From: a virus
Length of the DNA: 35,615 nt
Reading direction: 5' to 3' (one strand)
IMG/VR virus record: IMGVR_UViG_3300043433_000032
Coordinates: 1-35,615 of that record
Part shown: positions 228 to 35,029 of the stretch, in pieces
How the letters are laid out: each line of letters begins with the position of its first letter
Position numbering within the stretch: the stretch's first letter is position 1
Notes under the pieces: model-generated
Seen by the model: the letters and a program-made list of their open reading frames with translations, nothing else
What the model was told of the DNA's origin: nothing
Database searches by the model: none
Position numbers and translations under genes: made by a program

Positions 228-896
228 TTATGTACTTGGCGATGCAAACTGGTCTAGCATTAATAAATCAGGTTTAAATACGTCCTTAACGTCTGTATTA
301 GGCTCAAAAGTGCTAAATTCTTTCTTTTGCGGCTTCTTTATTATAATTCCGTTACTTATATCAACTAGCGCCTTTTCAATCAATTTAAGCCCCATTTCTT
401 GCAGTTCGTGTTCCCAAAGTAACTTTGCCGCCTTTTTTGGGTCAAGTGAGTATAACTTAGGGTCAATAAAACAAATGTCCTGATAAGCAATATCACCTCT
501 ATCAATTCCACTATTTAACCAAAATACCGTGCCGCCAGTTATTGCATCACGCATACGAACAGCCCATTCAATAGAAGAGCGACCACGATGGCGAGGCAAT
601 AAGCTAGGGTGGTAACCAATCCATCCAATATTCGGCTTATATCTTGTGCGTACGCCAATATAATCAAACGAGTGAGCCGTTATACCAATATCCACATTAT
701 CGGGCATTGTTTTGGCGTTTAAAGTACCCGCAGGAATAACTGGAATATTAAACCTGTGCGCCATTTTTGTAACATACTTATCGTCAAGTGGCGAACAAAC
801 TCCAACAACTTCAACAAAATCTAAACTATTGCATAAACTAAATACTTGCTCACCAAAGTATTTTTGTCCACTTATAAAAACTTTTAATTTCTTCAT
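228..896 (-). CDS. formyltransferase-fold protein of the mom-position cassette
   Basis: A 222-residue protein with the methionyl-tRNA formyltransferase/GART fold signature HPSLLPRHRG (about residues 96-105) followed by TGGT (120-123) and IDRGD (131-135). The family's catalytic His (H96) and Asp (D132) are present at the usual spacing of 36, but the catalytic Asn of the NxH motif is Gly (G94). The protein is shorter than housekeeping Fmt (about 310 residues) and lacks its C-terminal tRNA-binding domain, so it is unlikely to formylate initiator tRNA. Its ATG (894-896) overlaps the stop of the GNAT gene (893-895) by two bases, so the two are translationally coupled. Formyl or another one-carbon/acyl transfer to a nucleotide or DNA base is plausible by context, but this is inference. 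Confidence 0.75.
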   Translation of the reverse strand: MKKLKVFISGQKYFGEQVFSLCNSLDFVEVVGVCSPLDDKYVTKMAHRFNIPVIPAGTLNAKTMPDNVDIGITAHSFDYIGVRTRYKPNIGWIGYHPSLLPRHRGRSSIEWAVRMRDAITGGTVFWLNSGIDRGDIAYQDICFIDPKLYSLDPKKAAKLLWEHELQEMGLKLIEKALVDISNGIIIKKPQKKEFSTFEPNTDVKDVFKPDLLMLDQFASPST

Positions 897-1468
897 TCTC
901 CTAAATATTTAAAACTTTGAACGGCTCTAAAATGCCCTCCATAACCGCAACCAGAAATTCCGCTTTTTTTATTTCCAGTCTTCATGATACTTGCGTTACT
1001 TCTTGTTTTGTTTGAACCGAAAAGCATTGCGCCAGTTTGAACCCATTTTTTTGTATTTCTTAAATAGCCCGCAAGTTGTGGGTGGCTTGTGTGAAAAAAA
1101 GTATGATATTTTCTTGCACATCTGCCGTTACCCTCCAAATGGTATTGCATAACTTGATTTAAAAAAGCTGTTCCAACTCCAGCACCTTGCCACTCAGGCA
1201 TAACCACCAAGCGTGTTGCCCTATATGCTGTAGCAGTAAACAGCGGACAAACTGCAACGTGTGCCACAAGCTCGCCGTTTACAACACCAACAAAATACTC
1301 AGCTGCTGGTGGATGAGGCAAATCTAAATAGTAATGCTCTTTAAAAAACTTCCAGAAAGTTCCGTTGACCTTCCAAATATCAAGTTTGATTTCTGGTCTG
1401 TTCCCGAGTTCAATTTTTTTTTTAATACTTTGGTATTTACGTCGTATACCCAGTCTGGTTGTAACCAT
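893..1468 (-). CDS. GNAT acyltransferase, candidate Mom-like DNA-modification enzyme (-1 frame continuation of the ABC ATPase)
   Basis: A GNAT-fold protein. The acyl-CoA loop motif Q/RxxGxG is visible as WQGAGVG (residues 93-99 of this ORF), preceded by the beta-strand RLVVMP. The frame overlaps the upstream ABC ATPase by 145 bases. The region after the shared A10 run (1414-1423) reads like native protein (ELGNRPEIKLDIW), whereas the stretch before it (MVTTRLGIRRKYQ) looks like out-of-frame translation of the ATPase. I therefore think it is mainly made as an ATPase-GNAT fusion of about 375 residues through a -1 shift. A family with this same domain pair fused in one chain is known (COG2401, ABC ATPase fused to an acetyltransferase domain). 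In phage Mu the mom gene sits in this same place. Independent start at 1468 cannot be excluded. Confidence 0.7.
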   Translation of the reverse strand: MVTTRLGIRRKYQSIKKKIELGNRPEIKLDIWKVNGTFWKFFKEHYYLDLPHPPAAEYFVGVVNGELVAHVAVCPLFTATAYRATRLVVMPEWQGAGVGTAFLNQVMQYHLEGNGRCARKYHTFFHTSHPQLAGYLRNTKKWVQTGAMLFGSNKTRSNASIMKTGNKKSGISGCGYGGHFRAVQSFKYLGE

Positions 1469-2019
1469 TCGATAATGTCATAGTGGCAAGATAGAAGCAC
1501 CACCTTTTTGCCTTTATTTTTTCGCCAATTCTTTGCAAATGCTAACGCCCCAATTTTGGCAATTTGTCTATCAACAACACTTGTAAACTCATCAACAACA
1601 ACCTCGTTTGGAGCTTCAGTTACTAATCGAGCTAAACCCGCCCTAAATTGTTGACCATTTGATAAGGCGTGAAAAGGTCTTAACCAGCTAGGCACATCGC
1701 CAAGACCTACAGCGGCTAAAGCTCCTGTTGCCGAATCAAAAGCACCGTTTGGTAAAATGCAGTCAATAATAGGCTTGTCATGTTCCCAATTAGCGTAAAG
1801 GTTGCATATTTTATTCTCGCCAAAAAACTGTTTTCCAATTGAAGTCTTACCGGAACCACTCGCCCCAACAATTAAACCAATGCCCCAATCCAAGTCGTCA
1901 ATTTCAATATTAAACTCATTTACAAATTGTGAGCCGTCTTCCGCATTGAACAACGATTTTACTCTTTGAGCTCTATAGCTTTCAAAGTTTTTTGTTTTAT
2001 TTTCAACTTTTATGATCAT
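1324..2019 (-). CDS. ABC-type ATPase of the mom-position cassette
   Basis: A 231-residue soluble ATPase in the zero frame. Walker A is GASGSGKT (residues 52-59), the ABC signature LSNGQQ (119-124), Walker B VVVDEF with catalytic Glu (140-145) and an H-loop SCHYD (H179). There are no membrane segments and no permease nearby, so it is not a transporter. The C-terminal tail after residue 202 (KKK, encoded by A10) is low-complexity and probably the product of reading past a frameshift site. A -1 shift there joins the GNAT domain. The start ATG (2019) overlaps the stop of the small upstream gene (ATGA). It may power DNA or nucleotide handling by the acyltransferase, by inference from the COG2401 domain pairing. 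Confidence 0.75.
   Translation of the reverse strand: MIIKVENKTKNFESYRAQRVKSLFNAEDGSQFVNEFNIEIDDLDWGIGLIVGASGSGKTSIGKQFFGENKICNLYANWEHDKPIIDCILPNGAFDSATGALAAVGLGDVPSWLRPFHALSNGQQFRAGLARLVTEAPNEVVVDEFTSVVDRQIAKIGALAFAKNWRKNKGKKVVLLSCHYDIIEWLQPDWVYDVNTKVLKKKLNSGTDQKSNLIFGRSTELSGSFLKSITI
1414..1423 (-). other. A10 slippery run, candidate -1 frameshift or transcriptional slippage site
   Basis: On the - strand the codons are TTA AAA AAA AAA TTG, so A AAA AAA heptamers are present in the correct phase. A -1 slip changes KKK-LNSGT to KKK-IELGNRPE, entering the GNAT frame. An imperfect hairpin (CCAGAAA/TTTCTGG arms) lies about 17 nt downstream. Polymerase slippage on ten A's is equally possible, as is a fixed indel. 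Confidence 0.55.
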
Positions 2020-2144
2020 GTTGTTACTACTTTAAGTTTTAAACCTTTAGCCTTTAGCTCATCGAACATTTTAATTTGTTCCTCTTCTGTTTCACAAATA
2101 ACAATAACGCCGTATTGCTGTTTGTAGTTAAATTGTTTTGCCAT
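2016..2144 (-). CDS. 42-residue conserved-looking protein at the head of the mom-position cassette
   Basis: ATG at 2142-2144, TGA at 2016-2018, sharing ATGA with the ATPase start, which supports true coupled translation. The sequence has a hydrophobic strand YGVIVIC, an acidic helix ETEEEQIKMFDELKAKG and a final strand LKLKVV. This beta-alpha-beta pattern resembles small phage proteins that I have a general memory of seeing in similar settings, but I cannot name the family. It may be a subunit or regulator of the ATPase-GNAT enzyme. Confidence 0.65.
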   Translation of the reverse strand: MAKQFNYKQQYGVIVICETEEEQIKMFDELKAKGLKLKVVTT

Positions 2145-30382: not shown

Positions 30383-31015
30383 TTATTGTTTTAAATTGAA
30401 ATCGTATTGTGCGGCTCCTTCAGCCCAAATGATGTATGGTTCTTTATCTCCTCCAAGTCGACTTAAACACATCGCCTTGTAACCTTCAACTCTAATTTTT
30501 ACATCGGCGTCGTACTTTACGAAATCTGCTAATGCTCCTTTAGGGTTTTTACCGTCTGCGTGACTAATGAAAATGAATAGTTTATTTGGAAACTCTTCTT
30601 TTAAACTTTGGTATTCTTTTTTAGTCATTCCAGAATATTGTATCGAGTCTATGAATATTATATCTGGGCTTTTCCTTTTTCTAAGTCTTACTTTTAAATC
30701 GGGTATCGGTTCTCTATTACCGATTATAAATTTCCGTGCGACTTCTTTCATATTGTTTTTTATTACAGCGGTTTGAAGTGATTTTCTTGCGCCTTCCTCC
30801 AGAGAGTTGTAAAAAACTTTTCCCGAACCTGTGAGCTCCTTTGCAAGTTGGAGGGAAAAAGCCGTTTTACCGTTAAAACTTTCACCCCATATTATCCAAA
30901 CTCCAGAACGTTCTGGAAATCCGAGTAGCTTACCAAAAAAAGGGGACAATTGTAATTCAATGAACTTCATTTTCTCAATCTCATCAACTGAGATGGCTCT
31001 TTTAATCTTGCTCAT
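30383..31015 (-). CDS. RecA-fold ATPase of the early operon
   Basis: 210 residues with Walker A GESFNGKT (44-51) and Walker B DIIFIDS (118-124). The core FIGVWIIWGESFNGKTAFSLQLAKEL-like start, then FNSLEEG, then ISHADGKNPKGALADFVKYDADVKIRVEGYKA is the pattern of RecA/DnaB-like phage ATPases. Position directly after the MuB-like gene suggests a role in replicative transposition or DNA repair. It differs from MuB (which is a separate gene here). Confidence 0.75.
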   Translation of the reverse strand: MSKIKRAISVDEIEKMKFIELQLSPFFGKLLGFPERSGVWIIWGESFNGKTAFSLQLAKELTGSGKVFYNSLEEGARKSLQTAVIKNNMKEVARKFIIGNREPIPDLKVRLRKRKSPDIIFIDSIQYSGMTKKEYQSLKEEFPNKLFIFISHADGKNPKGALADFVKYDADVKIRVEGYKAMCLSRLGGDKEPYIIWAEGAAQYDFNLKQ

Positions 31016-31862
31016 TCACTTTCTTGTTTTTATGAGCGTGAATTGAACGCTTAACTCTTCTTAAATCTCCATCACATTCATTAAAAATGTTTTTGAATGC
31101 TTTAGTATCTGCAACTCCGTTTGCCATACATATTTGAGCCACATCTGTTGCGTTAACTCCTTTTAGCTCTATAAACTTTCTACCGATACGAGAATGAATT
31201 TCTTTGTAGCCTTTTCTGTTTAGTTTAATGCCTCGGTTTATTCTTTTGGACAAATGGTCAGTCGCACATAAAATAATACCGCAGTGGTCTTCTAATCTAT
31301 TGTAAAGCGTAATGAAGAAATATAAAACCGTATCAGGTAATTTGTCTGCTTCATCTAAAATGATAAGCGGATTTTGTTGTGATTTCAAACGCTTAACGAT
31401 TTCATTCATCATTTCAGCAACAGTTAAACCACTATAATCAACGCCCATTGCAGTAAGCAACTGAATTAAAAATTCTTTTCTATTCCAGTATTCCGCACAA
31501 CTCAATAAATATGCGTTTTGGTGGTTTTTAGCGAACAGTTCAAAAGTTTTAGACTTACCAGAACCTGCGTCGCCAGTCATTCCAAAAACGTTTGAATTTT
31601 CCTGTGCATCATTTAGAAACTTATTGATCAGTTTATAGTCTGTAGTTTCAACATATACCCACTCGTTTTTTGTTAGCCCAATTTGGCTCGCTACATTTCG
31701 CCACATATCATCTGAGATATTTTCCCAATTGTCATTCATTATTTGAGACAATAATGCAGATGATGCGCCTTGTAATGAATTGGCCGCTTTGTTTTGTGAA
31801 CCTTTTTGCGCTATATAATTTTTAAGCGTTTCTTTAACTTGTTGTTTGAAATCTGTTGTCAT
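31002..31862 (-). CDS. MuB-like AAA+ ATPase (target DNA activator)
   Basis: 286 residues. N-terminal HTH-like region (KNYIAQKGSQNKAANSLQGASSALLSQIM, 15-42) then AAA domain with Walker A GDAGSGKS (97-104), Walker B LIILDEAD (166-173) and the C-terminal helical part (LRRVKRSIHAHKNKK). This domain order is that of MuB, which delivers target DNA and stimulates the transposase. It lies directly after the transposase gene. Confidence 0.85.
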   Translation of the reverse strand: MTTDFKQQVKETLKNYIAQKGSQNKAANSLQGASSALLSQIMNDNWENISDDMWRNVASQIGLTKNEWVYVETTDYKLINKFLNDAQENSNVFGMTGDAGSGKSKTFELFAKNHQNAYLLSCAEYWNRKEFLIQLLTAMGVDYSGLTVAEMMNEIVKRLKSQQNPLIILDEADKLPDTVLYFFITLYNRLEDHCGIILCATDHLSKRINRGIKLNRKGYKEIHSRIGRKFIELKGVNATDVAQICMANGVADTKAFKNIFNECDGDLRRVKRSIHAHKNKKVNEQD

Positions 31863-31884: not shown

Positions 31885-33873
31885 TTACATTAATTTGTAT
31901 ATGTCAATATCATCGTTATCATCTGCGAGAACTGTCTCTGAAACTTTCTTTTGATAAGAGCCGATGTCTAACTTTTCTTTTTTGGCTCTTGAACTTTCAA
32001 TTCCTTTTAGTGCTGGCTCATTCAATCCGTAATCAATTGCTCTTCTGCCTTCTTGCTCTAAAATTGTTTCAACTTGATCTCTGTTGCTTACTCTGATTTC
32101 TTTAAGTTTGTCGTTTACCGTTTTGAAGTAACCCGCTTCGAAATCTTCCTGTTCTTGTTTACCTCTGTGGACAATTACTTTGGTTTCAGCTTCTTTAATC
32201 AATCTCAATCCAAGAGGAGTTTTTTCGTAAAGCATAATCAAACTCATATCGTCTGGGTCAAACTTGATTGTGAACTTTTTGTCAACGTTTTGATTTAACC
32301 AAACTAAATCGGGAGTTCTGTCGTGGTTGTAAACCATATAATCGTATTGCGTATTCTTTTCTTTAATTGTAATTCCACCAGAAGTACAGGTAACTTGTTT
32401 TTCACGTTCAATCCAGAAGAAATCAACCATTTGAAGCGGTGATACTTGTGGAGCTTCTTCGTTGATTGAATTGTAATACATATCAATTCGAGAAATTCCA
32501 GTTTTTGGGTGTATTCCAGAGTTCCATTTTTCACGGCATTTAGCGTAAATGTCTTTTACCTCTTGCAATGTTGGAAGGTTAGCGGTGTTTGCTAAAATCA
32601 TTTCCATATTTGCGTGTGAGCTTACTTTTACAGCCGTAATATTCTGACCTGTGAAAAACCAATGCTGTGCTAGTATTTGAGACTGAAAACGTCCGAATGC
32701 ACTCTCAATAGTTTTTGATTTACCATTATAGGGCTGTGTTTTAATGGCTAAATGTGAAATTTTGTTTAAGAAGTTACCACTTTCTAACCTTTTGTGGCCA
32801 CCTTGGTTGTCAAATGATATTTGATAAGGTCTAGCGCCTGCAGTTTTCATTGCCATTTTGTATGCGTAGTACTGAGCTTCGTAGTTTTCAGTTTCTGAGA
32901 TATGATAACCTAAGAAAACCTCCGAGTATGCGTCCATTACTTCGTACACATTTATTGTTTTCATTTTTCCGTTCTCTTGGTAGTACATGTTTAGTTTTGT
33001 ACCATCTGAATACCATAAACTGTCTCGCATTGATGGTAAAGCCGTTTTGTGGTGATATGTGAACTTTTCTTTTGCTTTTAGTTCGCCGTATCTGTAACCG
33101 TACCATAAATATTCTAACGGAGTTAGATAGTTTATAATTGATTGTTCTGTTTTAAGTTCTTTCCAACCTCTTAACTGAGCCTCTTCGTTATATTCTAATA
33201 ATAATTGTGAGAAACTTGGACAACGTTTTACTCTGTCGCACCATCTTGCAAAAATCCAACGCCCAGATTCCTCTGTAATTTTTTCAGCATTTTTAGAACA
33301 GAAATTTTTGTGTATTAAACAGGTGTAACCATCGTTTAAATACTGTTTAAGTTTGTCCTGAAGTCGACGTGAGTTACTTGGTAAAGTATGCGGATAAGTG
33401 TGTCGTGGTAATTCTGAAACAACTTCAGTAATTTTTTGCCAAACATTTAATTTTGAACCCGCCAACGCTTTACGTTGCATTGCTTTGTTTTGGTAAATGT
33501 TATTAATAGCGTTTAACACGTTTGCGTTTGCCAAATATTCCTTTTTGTTTTTCTCTGGAAGAGCGTCGCCGCTATCTAAAGTATAATTCTCGAAAAACTC
33601 ATAAGCCTTTTGGTCTTGCTCGATATAGTCAGTAAAAGAAATCGTAGAAACCTTTGTGTAAGGATCTCCTGCTATTTCAATTACTTTATTTTTTATATCT
33701 GTTCGCATAGTGTTAAATTCTATTAGTGCTTTTCTACCGTTACCTCCAGTTTGGAGTTTTTTTGCCTGTTCTTTTCTTAATAATGCTTTTAAGTTTGGCC
33801 GTGATATAATTCTTTCCTGAATCAGCCAATCATATTGCACGCATAAGATGTTATTTTGATAATATTCAAACAT
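31885..33873 (-). CDS. MuA-like DDE transposase
   Basis: 662 residues, matching MuA (663). Catalytic residues of the RNase H fold: D290 (LWYSDGTKLN), D355 (ISFDNQGGH) and E390 (KTIESAFGRF), with D355-E390 spacing of 34 residues. N-terminal helical DNA-binding regions precede it, and a beta-barrel-like part follows (about 470-560). It binds the end motifs described here and catalyses replicative transposition and integration. Confidence 0.92.
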   Translation of the reverse strand: MFEYYQNNILCVQYDWLIQERIISRPNLKALLRKEQAKKLQTGGNGRKALIEFNTMRTDIKNKVIEIAGDPYTKVSTISFTDYIEQDQKAYEFFENYTLDSGDALPEKNKKEYLANANVLNAINNIYQNKAMQRKALAGSKLNVWQKITEVVSELPRHTYPHTLPSNSRRLQDKLKQYLNDGYTCLIHKNFCSKNAEKITEESGRWIFARWCDRVKRCPSFSQLLLEYNEEAQLRGWKELKTEQSIINYLTPLEYLWYGYRYGELKAKEKFTYHHKTALPSMRDSLWYSDGTKLNMYYQENGKMKTINVYEVMDAYSEVFLGYHISETENYEAQYYAYKMAMKTAGARPYQISFDNQGGHKRLESGNFLNKISHLAIKTQPYNGKSKTIESAFGRFQSQILAQHWFFTGQNITAVKVSSHANMEMILANTANLPTLQEVKDIYAKCREKWNSGIHPKTGISRIDMYYNSINEEAPQVSPLQMVDFFWIEREKQVTCTSGGITIKEKNTQYDYMVYNHDRTPDLVWLNQNVDKKFTIKFDPDDMSLIMLYEKTPLGLRLIKEAETKVIVHRGKQEQEDFEAGYFKTVNDKLKEIRVSNRDQVETILEQEGRRAIDYGLNEPALKGIESSRAKKEKLDIGSYQKKVSETVLADDNDDIDIYKLM

Positions 33874-34636: not shown

Positions 34637-35029
34637 ATGAGTAGTATAGTAAAAAGACTAAGTCAATACATTGAACATAAAGGAATTAGCGTTAGTGTTG
34701 CCGAAAAAGAAATCGGCATATCTAACGGTAGTTTAAGTAAACCTTTTAAGTCTAATACCACGATAAAGACAGATGCATTAGAAAAGTTTCTAAAAACCTA
34801 TATTGATATAAATCCTAATTGGCTTTTAAATGGATCTGGAAGTATGTTGAAAAACACTGCAGAATTTGATAAATTAAATTTTAAAGAATTATCTGAAGCA
34901 CGCGCAGAAATAATTGAAGGATTAAAATATAAAATTTCTTCTTTAGAAAAAGAGATCTTAGAGTTAAAACAGCAGGACCAGGATAAAAGTAAGTCGGCAC
35001 CTCCTCTGGCAACTTCTACTGGAAAATAG
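34637..35029 (+). CDS. prophage repressor (HTH_3-like with coiled-coil C-terminus)
   Basis: 130 residues. N-terminal HTH (VKRLSQYIEHKGISVSVAEKEIGISNGSLSKPFKS, about 5-39), then DINPNWLLNGSGSM as in many Bacteroidota phage repressors, and a C-terminal coiled coil (LSEARAEIIEGLKYKISSLEKEILELKQQ). No autoprotease domain. Divergent from the Ner-like gene and thus the c-repressor equivalent. Confidence 0.8.
   Translation: MSSIVKRLSQYIEHKGISVSVAEKEIGISNGSLSKPFKSNTTIKTDALEKFLKTYIDINPNWLLNGSGSMLKNTAEFDKLNFKELSEARAEIIEGLKYKISSLEKEILELKQQDQDKSKSAPPLATSTGK

Follow-up and report, generated by a model that had tools for sequence, protein, structure and literature searches.

A probable DNA-modification module with a predicted −1 recoded ABC-GNAT enzyme in the terminal mom slot of a Mu-like phage

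What is the function of a gene cassette that occupies the mom position at the end of a Mu-like phage genome, if it does not contain mom itself? We addressed this question for a stretch of viral DNA of 35,615 nucleotides (nt) (IMG/VR record IMGVR_UViG_3300043433_000032, positions 1 to 35,615; in the following called the window), in which a 42-amino acid (aa) open reading frame (ORF), an ABC ATPase, a GNAT frame and a formyltransferase-fold (Fmt-like) gene follow each other on the minus strand. A first-pass annotation had suggested four translationally coupled genes for an acyl-type DNA modification. Our survey covered 80 related loci of viruses and another 80 taken from bacterial genomes. We consider an exchangeable phage DNA-modification module in the terminal slot of mom the best explanation of the whole, with a probability of about 0.7. 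Within this module, the ABC ATPase and the GNAT are very probably joined by −1 recoding, and the cassette probably attaches a small acyl group, perhaps formyl, to the DNA of the phage.

Results

Exchange of the cassette with Mom and DNA methylases

All four predicted parts were found on the minus strand, three of them within the interval 893–2144 assigned to the cassette in the first-pass annotation, whereas the Fmt-like gene lies outside of it, at 228–896. The small ORF and the ABC gene overlap by 4 nt, as do the GNAT frame and the Fmt-like gene, in agreement with the suggested coupling. The GNAT, however, is read in the −1 frame and shares 145 nt with the ABC gene; these two appear to encode one recoded enzyme, leaving three genes, not four. 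The small domain is encoded upstream of the ABC gene in 141 of 143 loci and an Fmt-like gene lies downstream in 132 of the 137 loci having enough flanking sequence, both far beyond chance. As judged from sequence, the small domain, in the following called the adaptor, and the Fmt-like enzyme belong to the same unit as ABC-GNAT.

We used a conserved hairpin element next to the cassette as a tag for the slot, which extends from this tag to the phage end. The tag was found together with its 3′ pairing partner in 20 viral contigs, 12 of them lacking the cassette genes. In tagged contigs without the cassette, the slot contains Mom (L412 and L413; PF25680, E-values of 2e-61 and 2e-62), D12 adenine methylases (L349, L356, L360, L366 and L411), an N6/N4 methylase (L352) or a C5 methylase (L411, in addition). 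One of the Mom carriers, L413, retains a homolog of the window ORF at 2312–2668 with 49% identity. The assignment of the cassette to the mom position, at the phage end opposite the repressor, was thus borne out by sister phages holding Mom or DNA methylases in the slot. The same exchange is seen in Arthrobacter phages, where Timinator carries Mom and EastWest carries ABC-GNAT in the same place, between flanking genes that are 62% and 55% identical, and the C-terminal domain of the ParB-like partner switches along with the enzyme.

The neighbors at about 160 loci cluster into ParB-like, tail, terminase, cytosine methylase and reverse transcriptase genes. A consistent linkage to cell-wall or tRNA functions, which would have spoken against DNA modification, was not seen among them; ParB-like, tail, terminase and DNA methylase genes recur instead. 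The replacement of the cassette by Mom or DNA methylases in the slot provides strong independent support for DNA modification by ABC-GNAT and, together with the swap between Timinator and EastWest, favors the suggested multi-enzyme, acyl-type modification. We therefore regard it as probable that the cassette modifies phage DNA.

Alternatively, ABC-GNAT might acylate a host protein or RNA, such as RNA polymerase, the ribosome or tRNA, for takeover of the host. Phage GNATs such as Rac acetylate RNA polymerase (PMC7824862), TmcA-type enzymes use RNA, and the ASCH family, found among the neighbors in Firmicutes phages, includes N4-acylcytosine nucleoside hydrolases. However, Mom and DNA methylases replace the cassette in two unrelated phage groups, the ParB-like partner is DNA-linked and the cassette lies on the tail-gene side of the phage, which makes a host target improbable.

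The ASCH-domain genes were observed downstream of ABC/GNAT in the Firmicutes phages L210, L212 and L214. The ASCH protein YqfB hydrolyses N4-acylcytosines (PMC6972931); by analogy, these neighbors give a hint at cytosine as the modified base.

The proposed kinship of the GNAT with Mom was not upheld. A profile–profile comparison with Mom yielded an hhalign probability of 0.2, no match to PF25680 appeared at E-values up to 10, and the profile search of PDB gave none either. Mu Mom (structure 8bv8), which acts with Com, resembles the window GNAT in its GNAT fold and in its location at the same Mu-like phage end, and sister phages carry it in the slot. It differs in lacking detectable sequence kinship and in not being fused to an ABC ATPase; moreover, the Mom alignment is without the acyl-CoA (coenzyme A) motif QGxGxG, which the window GNAT keeps.

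A predicted −1 recoding site joins the ABC ATPase and the GNAT

The ABC gene (1324–2019, minus strand) encodes a soluble ATPase with a zero-frame product of 231 aa (PF00005, E-value 6e-6), in which the motifs GASGSGKT at position 52 (Walker A), LSNGQ at 119, VVVDEFTS at 140 (Walker B) and SCHYD at 177 are intact. The GNAT domain (893–1423, minus strand, −1 frame; PF00583, E-value 7e-7) has an intact acyl-CoA motif, QGAGVG, and an invariant H-x-Y-L motif. The family phrog_11143 is a single protein of 357 aa, and the window matches both of its halves, the N-terminal one by the ABC ATPase (E-value 1.4e-86) and the C-terminal one by the GNAT (1.7e-53). Fused single ABC-GNAT genes also occur in the GenBank phages Komp_PAO1_1 and AnClar and in Porphyromonas phages. 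Unlike phrog_11143, ABC-GNAT of the window is not encoded in one continuous frame, and a single product, a fusion of 375 aa with the GNAT as its C-terminal half, could arise only via recoding.

The candidate site is a run of ten adenines (A10) at 1414–1423 on the minus strand, read TTA AAA AAA AAA TTG in the ABC frame, with the slippery heptamer in the zero frame at 1425–1417 (TTA AAA AAA). The family, covering the 160 viral and bacterial loci, consists of in-frame fusions and a group split by a −1 shift. The sequence AAA AAA followed by AAA or AAG was present at the junction in all 62 readable split loci, including the window; the split loci L009, L014 and L076 were excluded, as their ABC frame is interrupted upstream or could not be located. 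The runs fall into the classes A10 or A11, A9 and A7, with one A6 (CGA AAA AAG; A_AAA_AAG), all leading into the same −1 frame. In the viral tree, two changes account for the distribution of the split, one for a single clade and one for L018, which has A11 and is in frame. Hosts include Flavobacterium, Chryseobacterium, Capnocytophaga, Bizionia and Tenacibaculum, and the split arrangement also exists in isolate genomes, among them a complete Chryseobacterium chromosome (L145). In a separately fetched set, the junction heptamer was missing in 68 in-frame fusions and present in one (L223), as well as in a new flavobacterial split sequence; two further members of this set flagged as −1 (L235 and L293) are likely mis-scored in-frame fusions.

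In most relatives, a stop in the GNAT frame lies 18 nt before the A-run with no start codon in between, and the next start follows only 32–207 nt past the run. In the window and a few other loci the −1 frame is open and has a possible start, an ATG at 1468 in the window, but because of the upstream stop this position is unusable as a GNAT start in most relatives. With these stops and missing starts, we rejected a separate, coupled GNAT gene. Purifying selection on the GNAT is strong and similar to that on the ABC ATPase (ratio of nonsynonymous to synonymous changes, dN/dS, 0.02–0.14).

The zero-frame ABC tail and the −1-frame start of the GNAT overlap in a dual-coding stretch (1324–1413, minus strand). 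Among 56 sequences, third-base differences at fourfold sites are flat at about 0.68, fall to 0.56, 0.48 and 0.13 from the run to the ABC stop and return to 0.73 afterwards. By this measure, the overlap stretch alone is constrained by more than the GNAT protein, that is, by the ABC tail peptide or by an RNA. In the A7 clade, a hairpin of 8–9 bp begins 5–6 nt past the heptamer in nine of nine loci (mean z −3.05). Its cells are paired in 98.8% of cases, three pairs are changed on both sides, and its covariation score is 0.444, compared to 0.290 for shuffled alignments (0 of 500). The pattern in this clade is, on the comparative evidence, that of −1 ribosomal frameshifting; at the A9–A11 runs, including that of the window, slippage of RNA polymerase may contribute too.

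Could the split rather reflect sequencing or assembly errors, pseudogenes or a phase-variable homopolymer switch? Runs of A10 and A11 are error-prone and mutable, and in-frame variants exist (L018 with A11, L139 and L223). On the other hand, the 62 split loci have several run lengths, including A7 and one A6, and all of them share the same −1 frame; the GNAT is under purifying selection, the A7-clade hairpin covaries and the split is present in isolate genomes. We therefore judge this explanation very unlikely.

Several observations nevertheless weigh against recoding, or against its being indispensable. The three in-frame loci just named (A10 in the case of L139) are members of the split clade, indicating that the split is not essential. 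The ATG in the window GNAT frame is followed by no intervening stop, hence weak independent initiation of the GNAT is possible in this one phage. Finally, no strong hairpin was found downstream of the A9–A11 runs, including that of the window (mean z 0.04 for the A10 class). A hairpin as stimulator was dropped for the A10 and A9 classes, which gave no signal; a CCAG/CTGG stem that caught the eye in the window found no support in its class as a whole.

Weighing these points, we hold with high confidence that −1 recoding at the A-run links ABC to GNAT. The phage should then make both free ABC ATPase (231 aa) and the ABC-GNAT fusion (375 aa). The arrangement is reminiscent of −1 frameshifting in dnaX and insertion sequence elements in its A_AAA_AAA or A_AAA_AAG heptamer, the downstream hairpin of the A7 clade and the predicted pair of a short and a long product. 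It differs in that a predicted DNA-modification enzyme is concerned and that the A9–A11 members are without the hairpin.

Other interruptions were observed in more distant members. In seven phages of Streptococcus, Lactococcus and Oenococcus the GNAT overlaps the ABC end in the same −1 manner, with no shared canonical heptamer found among them. A GNAT in the −1 frame at the ABC end was recorded for L207, L210-L214, L216, L228, L237 and L261, which belong to phages of these three genera and related phages; Javan420 has a further frame break within the GNAT. In Tenacibaculum phage pT24 (L209, 3495–4667), an in-frame TGA divides the GNAT into two annotated genes, due to a nonsense mutation or a recoded stop.

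The lack of a transport partner noted earlier holds, as there is no permease gene beside the ABC gene. With this and with only generic profile matches, an assignment as transporter ATPase was rejected; the database name "iron siderophore transporter" of a homolog (L207, 3462–4139) is misleading. The GNAT has no sequence relative in PDB by profile search (E-value 0.1). An AlphaFold model of the ABC-GNAT homolog L043 (predicted local distance difference test, pLDDT, of 82) resembles ABC ATPases with Z-scores of up to 15.0 and, over residues 209–375, the GNAT 1y9k with a Z-score of 14.7. ABC-GNAT systems occur in phages of Bacteroidota, Actinobacteria, Firmicutes and Proteobacteria.

The formyltransferase-fold enzyme resembles 10-formyltetrahydrofolate dehydrogenase

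The third enzyme domain (228–896, minus strand; PF00551, E-value 1.3e-17) was assigned to the type of the hydrolase domain of 10-formyltetrahydrofolate (10-formyl-THF) dehydrogenase (FDH). In the ranking of PDB profiles, the FDH hydrolase domain 4qpd (1.6e-40) comes before Fmt (3.6e-27), followed by sugar formyltransferases, PurN and HoxX. The AlphaFold model of the window protein (pLDDT 89.5) matches 4qpd with a Z-score of 26.8; against the assignment stands that the fold comparison alone ties FDH with Fmt (26.6). The folate-binding motif HxSLLPxxxG is present (HPSLLPRHRG in the window), H96 and D132 are invariant in the family alignment, and the Ser two residues after the His is found in 119 of 119 distinct sequences. 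In the same 119 sequences, the Asn of amine formyltransferases (Fmt, PurN, ArnA), located two residues before the His, is replaced by G, I or V throughout. FDH has Ile where the amine formyltransferases need Asn, and an Ile-to-Asn exchange cut its hydrolase activity to below 10% (PMC4388273). The fold, the His...Asp pair, the His-x-Ser and the missing transferase Asn are thus shared with FDH; the window enzyme differs in being stand-alone, without a dehydrogenase, carrier or decarbonylase domain, and in having ABC-GNAT as its partner.

FDH passes the formyl group to a phosphopantetheine thiol, and HypX has been proposed to form formyl-CoA (PMC6802093). From the FDH-type active site, this thiol chemistry and the acyl-CoA motif kept by the GNAT, we infer that the GNAT would use a formyl thioester as donor, and we suggest tentatively, by analogy, that the Fmt-like enzyme makes this formyl thioester. 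Against this, no Fmt-like gene lies beside the distant ABC-GNAT systems L077, L080-L082, EastWest and PX29, so the enzyme is not needed by all members; these may draw on host acetyl-CoA.

The absence of Fmt from the distant systems also fits a DNA-modification module with another chemistry, in which the GNAT adds a different acyl or aminoacyl group. The Fmt-like enzyme would then formylate the amine of that group or hydrolyse 10-formyl-THF for some other purpose. GNATs accept many acyl-CoAs, and FDH hydrolase domains do hydrolyse formyl-THF (PMC4388273). However, amine formylation uses the Asn that is missing in all 119 distinct family members, and the near-obligate linkage of Fmt and ABC-GNAT in the clade (132 of 137) points to a shared substrate. 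We regard such other chemistry as a possibility to be taken seriously.

The fold is also common to the sugar formyltransferases ArnA, WbkC and FdtF, which raises the question of N-formylation or acylation of surface sugars (O-antigen) for superinfection exclusion. In the profile search, sugar formyltransferases come far behind FDH, and ArnA retains the Asn (PMC4388273); in addition, the unit is without a membrane protein or glycosyltransferase, and its ParB-like partner and the slot contents are DNA-related. A role in surface modification is hence hardly credible. Database names are again of little help, as one Fmt-like gene is listed as "tRNA-methyltransferase" (L084, 2312–2962).

A free-standing ParB tail as putative adaptor

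The 42-aa protein (2016–2144, minus strand; phrog_28816, E-value 4.8e-12) corresponds to the C-terminal domain of a ParB-like protein of relatives. Upstream of ABC, the domain is free-standing in 104 and part of longer ORFs in 37 of 141 loci, and in several relatives, e.g., EastWest gp74 and Javan420, it is fused to ParB_N (Pfam). ParB_N was not found in the window protein, which has the C-terminal domain only. In Timinator and Appa, where the ParB-like protein is a neighbor of Mom, it ends in a Cys-rich tail instead. That the tail changes with the enzyme suggests an adaptor function. Matches to glyoxalase and beta-lactamase were discounted as chance, and the name "acr candidate" given to one such adaptor (L085, 5876–6004) is likewise misleading.

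Neighboring elements and phage context

The hairpin element used as a tag lies on the plus strand at 2161–2293, opposite the cassette leader. It is a candidate phage small RNA that marks the slot boundary and is a neighbor of the cassette, not a part of it. It has a TACTTTTG promoter-like box (TAnnTTTG) and a predicted hairpin of −52 kcal/mol (z −8) with two long stems, whose sequence varies among phages with pairing kept. The apical GTCCTCC pairs with the 3′ GGAGGAC-U run in 27 of 27 sequences. The 20 contigs were identified by a pattern search, and most of them are without the cassette. No Rfam family was matched; only sub-threshold microRNA matches appeared, which we judged to be chance.

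The assignment to Mu-like phages is based on a MuA-like transposase (31,885–33,873), near which, at the same phage end, a MuB-like protein is encoded (31,002–31,862). The repressor-like protein with a helix-turn-helix motif (34,637–35,029) lies at the phage end opposite the cassette. In 20 loci of Bacteroidales Mu-like phages, reverse-transcriptase genes resembling diversity-generating retroelements are located about 2.5 kb upstream of ABC, near tail genes.

Discussion

How might the parts work together? We propose that the adaptor, or its ParB-fused form, would recruit ABC-GNAT onto DNA, where ATP-driven ABC dimers would clamp or distort the double strand. The GNAT would then use an acyl-CoA to acylate an exocyclic amine of a base, in a TmcA-like manner. 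TmcA/NAT10 combines an ATPase motor with a GNAT and makes N4-acetylcytidine, acting on a base amine of RNA. The comparison concerns the way of working only; the ATPase of TmcA is of the helicase class, its substrate is RNA, and we do not claim membership in that family. The Fmt-like enzyme could supply the donor by moving formyl from 10-formyl-THF to the pantetheine thiol of CoA, with formyl-CoA feeding the GNAT. This would yield an N-formyl base, or a related N-acyl base, shielding phage DNA from restriction. The complete chain, in which the FDH-like enzyme charges CoA with formyl and ABC-GNAT, made only via −1 recoding and thereby set in its ratio to free ABC, formylates DNA bases, is more doubtful than the module itself, and we put it forward as a speculative model.

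ABC-GNAT was predicted earlier to be a DNA base acylator (Iyer 2013, cited in PMC7824862). As far as the citing description goes, those systems, including that of jumbo phage pT24, share the domain pair and the predicted role with the window, and the pT24 ABC is 42% identical; the −1 recoding, the FDH-like enzyme and the free-standing ParB-tail adaptor set the present cassette apart. We found no experimental test of the DNA-acylation prediction in the open literature, and as far as we could find, prediction alone has so far stood behind these systems. To our knowledge, the recoding and the exchange of ABC-GNAT for Mom itself in the slot appear to be new, and so do the identification of the small protein, the FDH-type active site and the formyl-thioester link.

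The recoding signal explains why these enzymes have been annotated as separate hypothetical or transporter genes. If the reading is true, ABC-GNAT would be the first DNA-modification enzyme known to us to be made by recoding. Both frames are constrained, which suggests that free ABC and ABC-GNAT both matter and gives a handle on the mechanism, and the FDH-like partner narrows the possible chemistry. A formyl-type modification drawn from one-carbon metabolism would, if true, represent a new class of DNA base modification.

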